Of a DNA stretch of 29,907 nucleotides, positions 4,065 to 19,556 are shown piece by piece. The DNA is taken from the IMG/VR virus record IMGVR_UViG_3300019093_000043, positions 1 through 29,907 of that record. One strand, given 5' to 3'. Each line of letters starts with the position of its first letter. The stretch's first letter is position 1. Origin of the DNA: a virus. The notes beneath the pieces are model-generated. The model saw only the letters and a list, made by a program, of their open reading frames with translations. It did no database searches and had not been told where the DNA came from. Made by a program: the position numbers and the translations under genes.

Positions 4065-4072
4065 TATTTATG
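4065..4072 (-). promoter_or_regulatory. T4-type late promoter (CATAAATA) directly before ATG
   Basis: Minus-strand CATAAATA, 7 of 8 to consensus, followed by TCTGT and the ATG at 4059. With T4 late spacing the transcript would start on the A of ATG. It lies immediately downstream of the gene 19 terminator, so the unit from 4059 leftward is independently transcribed. Confidence 0.65.
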
Positions 4073-4076
4073 CCAT

Positions 4077-4100
4077 AAAAAAGCCCGGCGTAAACCGGGC
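4077..4100 (-). terminator. Rho-independent terminator after gene 19
   Basis: Minus strand reads GCCCGG, loop TTTACG, CCGGGC, then TTTTTT: a 6-bp all-GC stem with a six-T run, 20 nt past the gp19 stop. It should end the highly expressed tube transcript and separates it from the promoter at 4065-4072. Confidence 0.88.
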
Positions 4101-4120
4101 CTGTTTTAGTCTAGTACTGC

Positions 4121-7800: not shown

Positions 7801-8131
7801 CTGCACGAATAGCAAATGCACCATTACCTAGACCCAAAGAACTATAAGCTGCCATCAATCCATATTCGTTGCGTTCGTCACCGTGTAGTGCAGTGCCGGC
7901 AGCACTCTGTTTAAATACTGGGTAACCTAGACCTGCAACCAGTTCACGCTGACTAGTGAACCTTTGTAGTTTGCCTGCTGTGGCCTTGGTAGTTCCGTTG
8001 GTAGCTGTGCCATTGGCTGTTTTGTCTTGTGCTGTAGCTAAAATGACCAAAGGAATTGTACCGACTGCGCCTGGTACATATTGACTTTCGTCTGTAACTG
8101 TTAATTGTAATCCTGGGGATACTAGTGCCAT
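4832..8131 (-). CDS. 18: Tail sheath protein gp18 (enlarged)
   Basis: The start is set at ATG 8131 (MALVSPGLQLTVTD), preceded by AAAAGGAATAATACC; an in-frame TTG 18 nt further up has no support. The product is 1099 aa against 659 in T4. The conserved sheath core is clear at residues 785-1099 (GHLAQRRMIVKAMKAAI; SYQWFAPAGTRRGLIDNAT; INPITVLTGIGLTAFGQKT; RINVARLVNYIR; VEFIYIPIRLKNPGDI). The sheath contracts around gp19 on host contact. The large middle (about 110-690) holds surface modules, including two similar segments at about 240-325 and 440-540 that resemble the flagellin IN-type fold, and two PTGSVW/DGTLW segments. It has its own late promoter and is followed by an inverted repeat. Confidence 0.95.
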   Translation of the reverse strand: MALVSPGLQLTVTDESQYVPGAVGTIPLVILATAQDKTANGTATNGTTKATAGKLQRFTSQRELVAGLGYPVFKQSAAGTALHGDERNEYGLMAAYSSLGLGNGAFAIRADIDLAQLDATSVRPKGKVANGIYWLDLNNTAFGINEWTEGIADSAGYFTTKTPIVITSLTTETTGGPTYTPLESVGAIGDYAVVVQSDVTYGTVNHIYYKNSENNWVEVGSTDWESSWSAGVGGIQNPTLTGVSNKVKINNTEVTIEGTTLTNIVSFINAANIDGVTAYASADNRLGFYITSASASNGSVADGLLSITSDAVVSDTNICTAVGIVDTEISDKLYGGPKLNFGTYVEVPSWRATDTQPRPTGSVWLKTTAKGNGANLGFKIYNSTNDLFTSVAAPFYANEESALYGLDPSAGGSSIAIGSLFVEYNIFDDGTPTSKAYRRAVSGQVSITGTTPLTTPVFNSGHQIVLRWTEPGSPATDSVQFAVGGTTRAAFVAAILAQNIPNVYAQIESSGAITIIHRAGGTIYLSNVGAGTALATAGFTSSTTGVRVNYANTDELVLSGFRPLTYTYSTITPYQAPADGTLWYYGDPLAVDILVNSGTSWKGYLLGGIDARGYNLANTDPAGPILSAVEPADGDRSDGSALVPGDLWIDTGDLENFPKMYRYNDAAIGKWIAIDNTDSINQNGIVFADARWDTTGTTDPITGTLPSTTTMLSSNYVDLDCPDARLYPRGTLLFNTRRGGFNVKQYVSKKFTATNYPDEAALSQLPAIAASWVTASGNKDNGSPYMGHLAQRRMIVKAMKAAISASTEIREERFAFSLIAAPGYPELISDMVALNNDRKNTAFIIGDTPMTLPANGVQLTNWSNGVSGVYGDGITTADPYLGVFYPAAQTTDVQGNAIVVPPSHMMLRTFIRSDNVSYQWFAPAGTRRGLIDNATKIGYLSAAGTTNTFVETGVNQGLRDVMYPININPITVLTGIGLTAFGQKTRNPTTSALDRINVARLVNYIRTILANVGNGFLFEPNDKITRDQLKSIIEGAMNDLVAKRGLYDYLVVCDGSNNTPERIARNELYVDIAIEPMKDVEFIYIPIRLKNPGDIAKGV

Positions 8132-8162
8132 GGTATTATTCCTTTTCAATACATGTTATTGA

Positions 8163-8170
8163 TATTTACC
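8163..8170 (-). promoter_or_regulatory. T4-type late promoter of gene 18 (GGTAAATA)
   Basis: Minus-strand GGTAAATA, TAAATA core. The predicted leader is about 26 nt with AAAGGA before the ATG at 8131. Confidence 0.6.
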
Positions 8171-8193
8171 AATAGCATATAATTTTGTCCTGT

Positions 8194-9634: not shown

Positions 9635-10546
9635 TTATCCGATGACCCAAGTGTAGGGTTCACTGCCGTCGATAAAGTCTTTGAGCTGTTGCTCGAGTGC
9701 TTCCATTTCGGCCTGTGCTTCGCTTTTTAGTGCGGCACCGTTGAGTGTGGTTCCTCCTTGTGGGCCAGTGATGGTTGCAAATTTTTCACGTGCTTCGCCT
9801 ACGATGCGTTTGGCAAAACTGTAGGCATATTCTTGTAACCACGGAAATGTTCTATAGTCATTGAACAACATACTGTCAGGCTTGTAGTTGTAGATCCATA
9901 GTAGCACACCTTCGACTACGTTTTCTGTGGTGTTGGGACCTTGACTGGGCAGTTTACGCACAATGGTCAACTTCTTGGTCACAGGATTGAATGTGTAGTT
10001 CATATGCCCACCAAACATACGCATTGTGAGTTCTTGGTATTGGCTGAACAGTTCGTAGTTTACCAAACCGCCCACACGGCCTGCCACCAACATATAAGTG
10101 TTCAAATAACCCGATGCAAATGGTTCAAACTGACTGGCAGTTGTGCCTGTGACTGATCCAATACCACGGCGGAAGATCTGACGTACTGCCATGACTTCTT
10201 TGGGCAATATGTACTCTTGTGTTTCGGGCTTCAGGTCCAGGGACGCATAAGATTCTTCTTGACTGTTTTGTGCTCGTTGACGATACTTGATGATGGCCTG
10301 ATTGATGGCCAGCTCATAGTGTTCTTTGTCTAACTCTACGTCAACGATCTGATCGCCTAGACGCAGACGAATATAGTCTGTGATTTCTTTGCGTTTGAGG
10401 TTGTCTGCTGTGAGTTGACTGTCATCGTAAGCAATCTTTCCGTGTCCGGATCCAGTCACTGGGTCATAAAGACTGCCAGTGATTAGACTACCTTTTGCGG
10501 TAAGATTCGCTTCTTGTGTTACTGTGCCTGTGAAAGGTTCGGACAT
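9635..10546 (-). CDS. 13: Neck protein gp13
   Basis: 303 aa, against 309 for T4 gp13, which with gp14 forms the neck that closes the filled head and accepts the tail. Family landmarks: ITDYIRLRLGDQIVDVELD at about 55-75, then INQAIIKYRQRA, an LPKEVMAVRQIFRRG strand, YELFSQYQELTMRMFGGHM, FNPVTKKLTIVRKLP, WIYNYKPDSMLFNDYRTFPW, and a helical end with AREKFATITGPQGGTTLNG and the terminal WVIG. The match to aquatic T4-like gp13 proteins is strong. Its ribosome-binding site (AAGAGA) is part of a hairpin with an internal late promoter, so it should be translated only from late RNA. gp14 does not follow here. Confidence 0.88.
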   Translation of the reverse strand: MSEPFTGTVTQEANLTAKGSLITGSLYDPVTGSGHGKIAYDDSQLTADNLKRKEITDYIRLRLGDQIVDVELDKEHYELAINQAIIKYRQRAQNSQEESYASLDLKPETQEYILPKEVMAVRQIFRRGIGSVTGTTASQFEPFASGYLNTYMLVAGRVGGLVNYELFSQYQELTMRMFGGHMNYTFNPVTKKLTIVRKLPSQGPNTTENVVEGVLLWIYNYKPDSMLFNDYRTFPWLQEYAYSFAKRIVGEAREKFATITGPQGGTTLNGAALKSEAQAEMEALEQQLKDFIDGSEPYTWVIG

Positions 10547-10552
10547 ACATAT

Positions 10553-10589
10553 TCTCTTGGTTCAATATATTTATTGAACTTTCAAGAGA
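10553..10589 (-). promoter_or_regulatory. RBS-sequestering hairpin at gp13 start
   Basis: In minus-strand RNA UCUCUUG pairs with CAAGAGA (7 bp, containing the gp13 Shine-Dalgarno), and inside it GUUCAAUA pairs with UAUUGAAC (8 bp), with an AAA bulge and an AAUA loop. RNA from upstream hides the site; RNA started at the internal late promoter lacks the 5' arm. Confidence 0.75.
10568..10575 (-). promoter_or_regulatory. T4-type late promoter of gp13 (AATAAATA) inside the hairpin
   Basis: Minus-strand AATAAATA, 7 of 8 to consensus. The predicted start at about 10562 gives a 16-nt leader with AAGAGA exposed. Confidence 0.72.
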
Positions 10590-11737
10590 ACAGTGTCAGT
10601 GCCAATACGGCCATTCAGCTTGGTTTCTGTTGCACGTACATCATCCAGGAACTTGCGTAACTGCACTTTGCCCGATTTGGCAAACTCTTTGAGCTTTTCC
10701 TCAGGTTTACGCAGAGTCTTGGCCACACTCTTGTCTGTGTCAAAGCCCGTGATGTTGGTACCTTTGATACCTAGCGTTTGATATCCTGCGGCCACATACT
10801 TGCCCAGTTTACGGGTCTTAATGTTGTAGATCCAAAGCTCTGCGGCTCCGATGATGTCTGCAGGATTGATGCTGACAATCTTGAGTGCGGCATCAGTTTT
10901 GGCGTACTTGAGTTTGGCAACCAATTTCTCTTTGCTGGGTGCTTTCTTGACACGGGCTTTCTTTGTGGCTTTTTTAACGCCACGATATTGCTCAACTGCG
11001 GCCAGCAAATTATCAATCCAGGAGATCATGCGTTTGAAGTCTGCGGCTTTGAAATTGCTGTAGCCTTCCCGTAATTGTGCATCTTCCCGGCCTTGTGCGG
11101 CCTGTAATTCTTCTCGGCGTTTGCTGTACAAGGCTTCGTACTTGCTGAGTTGGCCTTGCACCACATTGTTGGCAACCAAGAAGTCATACAACTTGGTAGA
11201 GTTGGCAATGCCTTGGCTAACATCATCAAACACACCTTCGAGCTCACCAATTAACTCACTGGTACGTTCGTTTAGTCGATCTTGAATGGTAGGCACGTAG
11301 GCTTTGGGACGGTCTGATGTAACTGCTTCAACTGTTTCGGGCTCGCTTTGTGCAAGAACTTCTGCAATCTGCTCACGCATAAATTGCATTTGGCGTTCAC
11401 GCATTGGCATACCAGCACGATGTGCCATAACCAGACTGCAGGCAGTCATTGACAACAAACGATCGGGACTGCGGATAAAATCGCTGACCTGTTGTTTGGG
11501 GTATCCGTTGTTCTGCATCCACTCCACTATGTATTTTTTAGTGTCTTTTTGATTGTAGTGATAATTGTAGTAATAAAAGCTCTTACGCAGGTGATGATCA
11601 AATTCCGTTTGATCCATTGCTTCAGCGGTCGCACTGTCCCATTGTGGCTCAGGGCCAGTGTACTTTTCGTCAGCAAAAGCCATACGTGTTGCACGTGGTG
11701 CTTTGGTCTTGATTTTGATGCCGGCTACTATTGCCAT
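10571..11737 (-). CDS. Uncharacterised, probably early-expressed phage protein
   Basis: 388 aa, from ATG 11737 (MAIVAGIKIK) with a strong GGAG ribosome-binding site; a longer form from 11794 is rejected because it would start within the promoter. The N-terminal third contains a tyrosine/histidine-rich segment (KSFYYYNYHYNQKDTKKYI) and EWMQNNGYPKQQV. The middle is helical and charged. Residues 260-290 form a basic patch (KKATKKARVKKAPSKEK), then a C-terminal domain with AAELWIYNIKTRKLGKYVA. I do not recognise a function. The basic patch could bind nucleic acid. A perfect-consensus sigma70 promoter lies 22 nt above, which points away from a purely structural role, although gp13 follows directly. 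Confidence 0.75.
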   Translation of the reverse strand: MAIVAGIKIKTKAPRATRMAFADEKYTGPEPQWDSATAEAMDQTEFDHHLRKSFYYYNYHYNQKDTKKYIVEWMQNNGYPKQQVSDFIRSPDRLLSMTACSLVMAHRAGMPMRERQMQFMREQIAEVLAQSEPETVEAVTSDRPKAYVPTIQDRLNERTSELIGELEGVFDDVSQGIANSTKLYDFLVANNVVQGQLSKYEALYSKRREELQAAQGREDAQLREGYSNFKAADFKRMISWIDNLLAAVEQYRGVKKATKKARVKKAPSKEKLVAKLKYAKTDAALKIVSINPADIIGAAELWIYNIKTRKLGKYVAAGYQTLGIKGTNITGFDTDKSVAKTLRKPEEKLKEFAKSGKVQLRKFLDDVRATETKLNGRIGTDTVLLKVQ

Positions 11738-11765: not shown

Positions 11766-11794
11766 ATTATACGCGATTTTGGCGTTATTGTCAA
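11766..11794 (-). promoter_or_regulatory. Perfect consensus sigma70 promoter
   Basis: TTGACA at 11789-11794, 17-nt spacer, TATAAT at 11766-11771: full match in both boxes at optimal spacing. It is directed at the 388-aa gene, with a leader of about 22 nt carrying GCAGGAG. The -35 starts right after the upstream gene's stop. Confidence 0.88.
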
Positions 11795-12061
11795 TTAGTA
11801 CATAAGTTTGGCCATTATGATCCACTGCTCAAAGTGCTTTACGCACTCATCAAACTGGGCCTGTAATTCTGTATACTTATGTGTTACACGCCGGCGCCTG
11901 CGGCATTCTACCATTTCTTTGTCCATTTCGGCCCAGATTCGGCGACAGTTTTCGTAAAACTTCCAGAGACTGCCTTTGGCCTGCATATCTTGCACAGCCT
12001 GTAACATAGACATGGCACACTGGTCAAGTCGGTCTTTGTTGGCCTGATGTTGCTGTTGCAT
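11795..12061 (-). CDS. Small conserved phage protein, probably early
   Basis: 88 aa, no recognised domain. It is helical and charged, with a conserved-looking centre (GSLWKFYENCRRIWAEMDKE), the basic run RRRRR, and HFEQWIIMAKL near the end. Similar small proteins occur, as I recall, in aquatic T4-like phages without known function. A strong sigma70 promoter lies so close that transcription should begin at or next to the ATG (TATAAT, 6 nt, ATG), so the mRNA may be leaderless. Alternatively translation begins at Met17 or Met19 within a short leader. The next gene's sigma70 promoter begins directly after its stop. Confidence 0.7.
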   Translation of the reverse strand: MQQQHQANKDRLDQCAMSMLQAVQDMQAKGSLWKFYENCRRIWAEMDKEMVECRRRRRVTHKYTELQAQFDECVKHFEQWIIMAKLMY

Positions 12062-12067
12062 ACACCA

Positions 12068-12096
12068 ATTATACGATAAAATGGATTAACAGTCAA
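12068..12096 (-). promoter_or_regulatory. Strong sigma70 promoter of the 88-aa gene
   Basis: TTGACT at 12091-12096, 17-nt spacer, TATAAT at 12068-12073 (11 of 12 consensus bases). It diverges from the plus-strand late promoter 4 nt away. Confidence 0.82.
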
Positions 12097-12099
12097 GCC

Positions 12100-12107
12100 C
12101 ATAAATA
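12100..12107 (+). promoter_or_regulatory. T4-type late promoter (CATAAATA) of the plus-strand neck/tail operon
   Basis: CATAAATA, 7 of 8. The predicted start at 12113 gives a 14-nt leader carrying GAGGAT before the ATG at 12127. It drives the operon through gene 15 and the Nudix gene. Confidence 0.7.
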
Positions 12108-12126: not shown

Positions 12127-13311
12127 ATGCCACGGTTGAGCCTTTGGAAAGACGGAACCCACAGTAACGATTACAAGTTTTTCGACAGACGTATTTCGGA
12201 AATGTTCACTGTTGGCGGCACTGGAATCCTGATCCACAAATACTTAGGTGTAGAAGGCGCGGACCTTGCAGATGCTACTCCAGCTAAACCTGCCTACGAT
12301 GCTGTCAGTGAACTAAACATACAAGACCTGTTGTTTTTGGAAAATCGTGATCGCAAGTACGACACTAGTGTGTATGTGGGCCGCGGTATCTATCAAGTAC
12401 AGGACAACAGTTTTGACCTGAGTCAATTTGGCCTGTTTATTCAAACTGGTACCTTGTTCATGGTGTTCCATATCAATGACATGGTGCAGTTGATTGGTCG
12501 TAAATTGATCAATGGAGATGTACTAGAACTGCAACACCTGATGGATTATAACAGCCTTGACGAAAGTGTGCCTGTTGCCTTAAAACGTTTCTTTGTGGTC
12601 AGCGATGCACAATTTGCATCAGAAGGCTTTAGTCCCACGTGGTGGCCGCACCTATGGCGTGTCAAGCTAAATCCAATGACTGCCAGCCAAGAATACAAAG
12701 ATATTCTTGCTGGTATCAGCAGCGATCCCTTGGATCCCAATGCCGCACCTATCGGTGATTATCTAAGCACCTTAAACAAATACCTAAACATCAACGATGC
12801 TGTGATTACACAGGCTGAACTTGATGTTCCCAAATCTGGTTATGATACCAGTATGTTGTATACCAAGGCAGTCATGCCCGATGGTAGACCAGCAGATCCA
12901 CCTGGCACCAATACTGTTGATGGCGGTGGACTCACTGCAGATGATGTAACAAACACTTCCGACCAACAGGCAATTACCAGTACCGCCAAAGTCAGCGGTT
13001 ACATGTCAGGCGATGGCACAGCACCCAATGGTGCCACAGTGGGCAACGGTATTGTATTTCCAACCACGGCCAGTGTCGGCGACTATTTCCTACGCCTAGA
13101 CTACTTGCCAAATCGTTTGTTTAGATACGACGGCACACGCTGGAACAAAATTGAAGATGTTGCCCGCACCAGTCTGACCCCAGGTGCCAGTAATCAAACA
13201 CAGTTGGGCTCATTTATCAACAATGATAAAACCTGGACTGATGCCAGTGGGCAAACAAGAACAGAACGCACCAGCCTGAGCAAGGCATTGAAACCCAAGG
13301 CAGATAATTAA
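12127..13311 (+). CDS. Conserved T4-like neck/tail virion protein
   Basis: 394 aa. The first 210 residues are strongly patterned: FFDRRISEMFTVGGTGILIH, NIQDLLFLENRDRKYD, SQFGLFIQTGTLFM, VPVALKRFFVVSDAQFASEG, then WWPHLWRVKLNP. I recognise this block from aquatic T4-like phages, where the gene stands in the neck/tail cluster near gene 15, but it is not T4 gp14 by sequence. Residues 330-394 form a separate module (NRLFRYDGTRWNKIEDVART and a N..LGSFINND segment) that recurs in virion proteins of these phages. The stop overlaps the gp15 start (TAATGG), so the two are coupled. Head-tail joining or tail completion is likely, by context. Confidence 0.75.
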   Translation: MPRLSLWKDGTHSNDYKFFDRRISEMFTVGGTGILIHKYLGVEGADLADATPAKPAYDAVSELNIQDLLFLENRDRKYDTSVYVGRGIYQVQDNSFDLSQFGLFIQTGTLFMVFHINDMVQLIGRKLINGDVLELQHLMDYNSLDESVPVALKRFFVVSDAQFASEGFSPTWWPHLWRVKLNPMTASQEYKDILAGISSDPLDPNAAPIGDYLSTLNKYLNINDAVITQAELDVPKSGYDTSMLYTKAVMPDGRPADPPGTNTVDGGGLTADDVTNTSDQQAITSTAKVSGYMSGDGTAPNGATVGNGIVFPTTASVGDYFLRLDYLPNRLFRYDGTRWNKIEDVARTSLTPGASNQTQLGSFINNDKTWTDASGQTRTERTSLSKALKPKADN

Positions 13312-19503: not shown

Positions 19504-19511
19504 TATTTAGC
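19504..19511 (-). promoter_or_regulatory. Late promoter of the adhesin gene (GCTAAATA)
   Basis: Minus-strand GCTAAATA with the TAAATA core, 21 nt above the ATG at 19482, directly following the terminator at 19514-19544. Confidence 0.55.
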
Positions 19512-19513
19512 CA

Positions 19514-19544
19514 AAAATAAAGGACCCGTGGGGTCCTTTATTTT
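19514..19544 (-). terminator. Strong bidirectional terminator between fibre genes
   Basis: A 14-bp perfect stem (arm AAAATAAAGGACCC) with a 3-nt loop. The stem's own A/T ends supply a T-run on either strand. It lies 12 nt past the stop of the 476-aa gene. Confidence 0.92.
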
Positions 19545-19556
19545 GAGTGGGCAATG

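Follow-up and report, generated by a model that had tools for sequence, protein, structure and literature searches.

A T4-type late-gene translation switch probably controls the neck gene gp13 of a jumbo myovirus

The neck gene gp13 of a jumbo myovirus is probably under a late-gene translation switch of the kind known from T4 gene e and I-TevI. The DNA analysed here, referred to below as the window, is a stretch of 29,907 nucleotides of the IMG/VR virus record IMGVR_UViG_3300019093_000043; its features are listed in Table 1. According to the proposed mechanism, early RNA reading into gp13 would come from host-type sigma70 promoters that precede the 88-aa and 388-aa genes, and in this read-through RNA the Shine-Dalgarno (SD) sequence would be trapped in a hairpin, so that little neck protein would be made early. 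Late in infection, a gp55-type polymerase would initiate at about 10562, within the hairpin; the late RNA would be without the 5' arm, leaving the SD free and allowing gp13 to be translated. We observed the hairpin, its lock on the SD, the position of the promoter, an open SD in the late form, covariation between the arms and an association with the direction of the upstream gene; what we infer is that early RNA reads through, that late RNA begins at 10562, and how strongly translation is affected. This mechanism, put forward in a first-pass annotation of the window, is the best supported among the explanations considered.

Table 1. Features of the gp13 region in the window (all on the minus strand)
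Feature	Position	Strand	Sequence or remark
Hairpin	10552-10590	-	5' arm 10590-10583 and 10579-10572, loop 10571-10568, 3' arm 10567-10552
Hairpin 5' arm, outer part	10590-10583	-	TTCTCTTG
Hairpin bulge	10582-10580	-	AAA, between outer and inner 5' arm
Hairpin 5' arm, inner part	10579-10572	-	GTTCAATA
Hairpin loop	10571-10568	-	AATA
Hairpin 3' arm, inner part	10567-10560	-	TATTGAAC
Hairpin 3' arm, outer part	10559-10552	-	CAAGAGAA
gp13 SD	10553-10558	-	AAGAGA; in 3' arm, every base paired in read-through RNA
T4-type late promoter box	10568-10575	-	AATAAATA; assigned by sequence
Predicted late transcription start (+1)	10562	-	T4 spacing rule
gp13 neck gene	9635-10546	-	303 aa; ATG at 10546; PHROG 211, head-tail adaptor Ad2, T4 gp13 equivalent
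Upstream co-oriented gene	10571-11737	-	388 aa; PHROG 11903 (no assigned function)
ORF between the two early-type promoters	11795-12061	-	88 aa; no family match
sigma70-type promoter	11766-11794	-	TTGACA-17-TATAAT, 12/12; about 58 nt 5' of the 388-aa ATG
Second sigma70-type promoter	12068-12096	-	11/12, 17-bp spacer; upstream of the 88-aa ORF

The first-pass annotation had placed a minus-strand hairpin hiding the gp13 SD at 10544-10589; the locus was right and the span was off by a few bases. The hairpin is two-part, its stem being lengthened by two further pairs to 10592/10550, and ACA/UGU pairing (10596-94 with 10549-47) reaches as far as the gp13 start codon. The 91-nt minus-strand fold from 10610 to 10520 has an energy of -27.1 kcal/mol compared with -14.3 +/- 2.7 for its shuffles (z -4.74), and none of the 200 dinucleotide shuffles was as stable. 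In a 259-nt read-through RNA from the window, the hairpin is retained in both the minimum free energy (MFE) and the centroid structures.

The late promoter lies inside the hairpin, as the annotation had it, with half of the box in the inner 5' stem and half in the loop. The T4 late box, TATAAATA, occupies positions -13 to -6 relative to +1 (PMC1524935), and this spacing rule yields the same predicted start as had been proposed before. RNA beginning at 10562 is without the 5' arm, cannot form the hairpin and does not refold; it has less structure than its own shuffles (z +1.68). In the model, the probability of an unpaired SD rises from 0.00 in the read-through RNA to 0.97 in the late-start RNA, and folding of the two forms thus bears out the earlier claim that RNA started late loses the 5' arm and has its SD free. 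Among the eight genes in the window with an upstream TAAATA box, fold z is lowest by a wide margin at gp13 (-6.6), and gp13 alone has its SD locked to bases 5' of +1.

The two upstream sigma70 promoters named in the annotation are real. Both are directed at gp13, with no convincing terminator between them and that gene, and a terminator scan of the window returned chance-level sites only. Following gp13 are a 147-aa ORF and then a deoxynucleoside monophosphate (dNMP) kinase gene. Within the 40 bp from 12068 to 12107, the minus-strand early-type promoter abuts a plus-strand late box (12100-12107, preceding a gene at 12127-13311), which may make this short region a point of divergence for early and late transcription.

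A DNA similarity search against phage records gave no match for the window, and relatives were therefore sought by protein. Homologues of gp13 were found by protein searches in IMG/VR contigs and named jumbo phages, giving 222 loci with an assignable gp13 start, which were reduced to 88 representatives with no pair >85% identical over positions -45 to -1. TAAATA is present just upstream of gp13 in nearly all relatives. Across the 88 representatives, the SD has a median unpaired probability of 0.04 in the read-through form versus 0.59 in the late-start form. Taken alone, SD pairing is too permissive a score (mean for shuffles 0.50), and the argument therefore rests on fold z, covariation and gene-direction controls.

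At 30 of 57 loci, a sigma70-type site scoring at least 10/12 is found no more than about 110 nt 5' of where the upstream ORF starts, mostly at about -58 and with differing spacer sequences, and most of the window's clade has a second such site near -1550 to -1590 from gp13. A gp55-like late sigma factor (phrog_12791, phrog_234) is found in nine of ten long relatives; the window itself is a 29.9-kb fragment. The paper on phage CBB describes ATAAATA late promoters before structural genes together with a gp55-like sigma factor, and does not mention the hairpin (PMC5259590).

The arm sequences are wholly different between subgroups (GTTCAATAAATA..TTGAAC, GGTGTCCTGGTAAATA..AGGACACC, ACTCCGTTGTATAGTTATAAATACTATATAACGGAGT and CCCCTAAATATG..CATGTTTAGGGG). 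In a set of 10 sequences, 84% of the alignment cells pair, compared with 27-59% in slid registers, and both sides have changed in 6 of 15 pairs, a number reached by one of 500 shuffles. In a set of 27 sequences, 91% of cells pair versus 34-51% in slid registers, and there are 19 double-change cells (0 of 500 shuffles), carried by two pairs only. The first-pass annotation had staked its hypothesis on the arms being kept complementary in related phages; they are, with compensatory changes, in both sets. RNAalifold gave weak consensus folds for the window's subgroup and a Mimasvirus-type subgroup, because bulges shift the alignment, and this result was counted neither for nor against the hairpin.

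The SD is paired in the MFE structure of 70 of 87 relatives, and in 65 of these 70 it pairs exclusively with bases 5' of the predicted +1. Relative to the TAAATA box, the arm is upstream in 59, on the box in one, and between the box and +1 in five. As read from these sequences, arm position is governed by the transcription start, without a fixed relation to the promoter box. Four relatives (L077, L135, L141 and L058) have a different lock, in which codons immediately past the ATG pair with a stretch from the promoter box onwards and the SD and start region are looped out. An arm set by +1 and a start-codon lock are expected of a translation switch and unexpected of a promoter palindrome. They bear also on whether this stable stem between two genes might be a message processing or stability element, an RNase III-type stem at the boundary of early and late messages. 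We consider that very improbable, since what the relatives conserve is the stem's placement relative to the SD and the promoter start, and the hiding of the start codon instead in a few relatives is not needed for a processing signal.

In the window, the hairpin 5' arm is made up of the final codons of the 388-aa gene (VLLKVQ-stop, with the stop at 10573-10571), and hardly any spacing separates the stop codon from gp13. In the window's subgroup, silencing in the early phase may leak or depend on coupling, because the 5' arm is translated and a ribosome terminating at the 388-aa stop, at the top of the stem, could open the SD. One might go further and take coupling to be the hairpin's function, gp13 translation from the long RNA being made to depend on ribosomes of the 388-aa gene that terminate inside the stem-loop. 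A coding 5' arm with a stop codon at the stem top, seen in the window and its nearest relatives, is as this reading predicts. However, about 40-57 nt separate the end of the upstream gene from gp13 in most other subgroups, and the hairpin is retained there even though its arm is untranslated; coupling also leaves unexplained the late promoter's place inside the hairpin and the position of nearly all SD partners 5' of +1. We therefore regard it as unlikely. The earlier remark that the end of the 388-aa gene is under double constraint holds likewise for the window's subgroup only, the arm following the upstream stop codon in most relatives.

Natural controls for the translation switch were obtained by sorting the loci according to which way the long ORF preceding gp13 points; 79 representatives were testable for fold z, a hairpin being called significant at z < -2. 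The median z is -4.09 where the upstream gene is co-oriented (n = 71) and -0.10 where it is opposite (n = 8; Mann-Whitney p = 1.3e-6, uncorrected for phylogeny). Significant hairpins were found at 57 of the 71 co-oriented loci versus one of the eight opposite ones, and values of z < -3 at 49 of 71 versus none of eight. Opposite orientation represents five changes on the gp13 tree, and two of the loci concerned, L026 and L041, are nested in hairpin-bearing clades and have a dNMP kinase gene upstream that points away from gp13. For orientation, a phylogenetic sign test has only 4-5 independent pairs and cannot reach 0.05; thus, the orientation evidence is strong but not phylogenetically conclusive. 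The significant hairpin is missing from 14 of the 71 co-oriented loci, some of which are explained. At L231, a strong GGCCGCCA/TGGCGGCC-TTTTT terminator separates the late box from the upstream gene, and Vibrio phage 2.275.O has its nearest annotated gene on the other strand. L156, whose upstream ORF ends 249 nt away, is an exception without a clean explanation.

Other late-promoter genes on the same contigs (n = 69) have a median z of -0.28, with 9% below -2 and 1% below -3. In three long relatives (G003, G004 and G009), gp13 is one of two to four strongly locked late-promoter genes per genome, and most of the remaining late-promoter genes are without a lock. The lock is thus selective and not inherent in late promoters. 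The idea that late promoters are generally palindromic was rejected on the basis of the 69 control genes and of the scans of the three long relatives and the window. A narrower form, in which the inverted repeat at gp13 is a protein-binding or promoter feature of the DNA and not an RNA element, would account for the late box lying within a dyad, and a small dyad also surrounds the gp18 promoter at 8168. Such a palindrome is missing from other late promoters, its arm varies in position relative to TAAATA while remaining constant relative to +1 and the SD, and it is lost where no read-through RNA is expected; of all the explanations we considered, this one is the least credible.

In the window, the hairpin is followed by AAGAGAATATGTATG and not by the T-run that, together with a G+C stem, marks an intrinsic terminator. 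A T-run does stand behind the hairpin in about 15 of 87 representatives, including GAP32, CBB, Munch, XaC1 and 121Q, and in these five phages the promoter, a possible terminator and the lock on the ribosome-binding site (RBS) overlap. Such T-runs would suit an attenuator, that is, a hairpin that chiefly stops early transcription and holds the late promoter inside it for a restart. The window and most relatives are without a T-run, which makes this account improbable for the hairpin as a whole, and attenuation is probably an added function in some lineages.

It is possible, and we suggest it tentatively, that the RBS-lock hairpin is a general insulator in T4-type jumbo phages and that in some of them it has fused with other elements. 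Selection would then build the lock where a late gene trails an early operon, and the lock would be dropped once the upstream gene is reversed or a terminator intervenes; in GAP32, CBB, Munch and XaC1, the late promoter, terminator and RBS lock would form one element of about 50 bases.

For comparison, T4 e, 49 and I-TevII were fetched and folded likewise, and their anatomy is as at gp13; T4 gene 13, folded likewise, is without either a late box or a hairpin of this sort. As in T4 gene e, the late box is inside the 5' arm, the SD is in the 3' arm and co-oriented early genes lie upstream, but gene e encodes lysozyme, whereas the protected gene here encodes a neck or connector protein and belongs to a jumbo-phage lineage. 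T4 soc is a structural gene, as is gp13; its product is a dispensable decoration protein. Unlike soc and gene 49, gp13 specifies a connector, and there is no sequence relation to either. With both it shares the arrangement of a late product at the end of an early or middle transcript with the RBS in a helix (PMC3014915). The switch has been reviewed for T4 e, soc, 49 and I-TevI, which confirms e, soc and 49 as the precedents cited in the first-pass annotation, and for gene e the long transcripts give about 100-fold lower synthesis (PMC3014915). A second review adds I-TevII/III, segB and Aeh1 mobE to the list (PMC2988022). In these and in I-TevI, promoter placement likewise leaves the late RNA without the 5' arm (PMC2988022), but they are mobile elements inside early genes, whereas gp13 is a core virion gene.

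The mechanism having already been reviewed for T4 genes, the gp13 hairpin is a further case of a known switch. What is new is that the gene encodes a connector, that it belongs to this group of phages and that the switch is so deeply conserved; new too are the variant with a start-codon lock and the version with a T-run. Our literature search found no report of such a hairpin at gene 13 or any neck gene, in agreement with the annotation's statement that no neck-gene case was known. A textbook phage switch, described for lysis, decoration and homing genes of T4 and its close kin, would thereby extend to a virion connector gene and to a large jumbo-phage group with both environmental and named members. 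The loss of the lock where the upstream gene is reversed is a natural experiment that shows the purpose of the hairpin, and the predictions are testable in phages that can be grown, namely GAP32, CBB, Munch and 121Q.

Several other locks and dyads were seen in the relatives. At L287:13400-13452 and L276:16555-16611, divergent late-gene pairs have between them a palindrome in which each strand carries a late box (CCTATAAATATAGTATATCAATTATATTTATAGG), and the SD region of each gene thereby lies in a dyad; fold z falls as low as -9.3. In two distant relatives, a second late gene (L276:1860, minus strand, and L288:9847, plus strand; starts MSQTTRQTNLLVEQDW and MAITTRQTGLLVAEDW) has an SD lock enclosing the late box. 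SD-lock candidates followed by a T-run (CCCTAAATATG...CATAGGGGATTTTTTT) are present at L268:9916 and L257:8687 (both minus strand) in the Mimasvirus-like genome G009. At L213:7136 (minus strand), in a relative of Agrobacterium phage Atu_ph07, a hairpin (CTCCTTTGGCTAAATA...ATAAGGAGA) resembling that of T4 gene e contains the late box and SD of an endolysin-like gene. In the window at 8131-8175 (minus strand), the tail sheath gene has its late promoter in a small dyad (CTATTGGTAAATATCAATAA) with the SD outside, and a weak SD lock is present at the tail sheath gene of several relatives. Finally, at 19509-19545 and 4070-4110 of the window (minus strand), late promoters stand right behind strong terminator-like hairpins (AAAGGACCCCACGGGTCCTTTATTTTT and GCCCGGTTTACGCCGGGCTTTTTT), which may represent an alternative means of insulating late genes.
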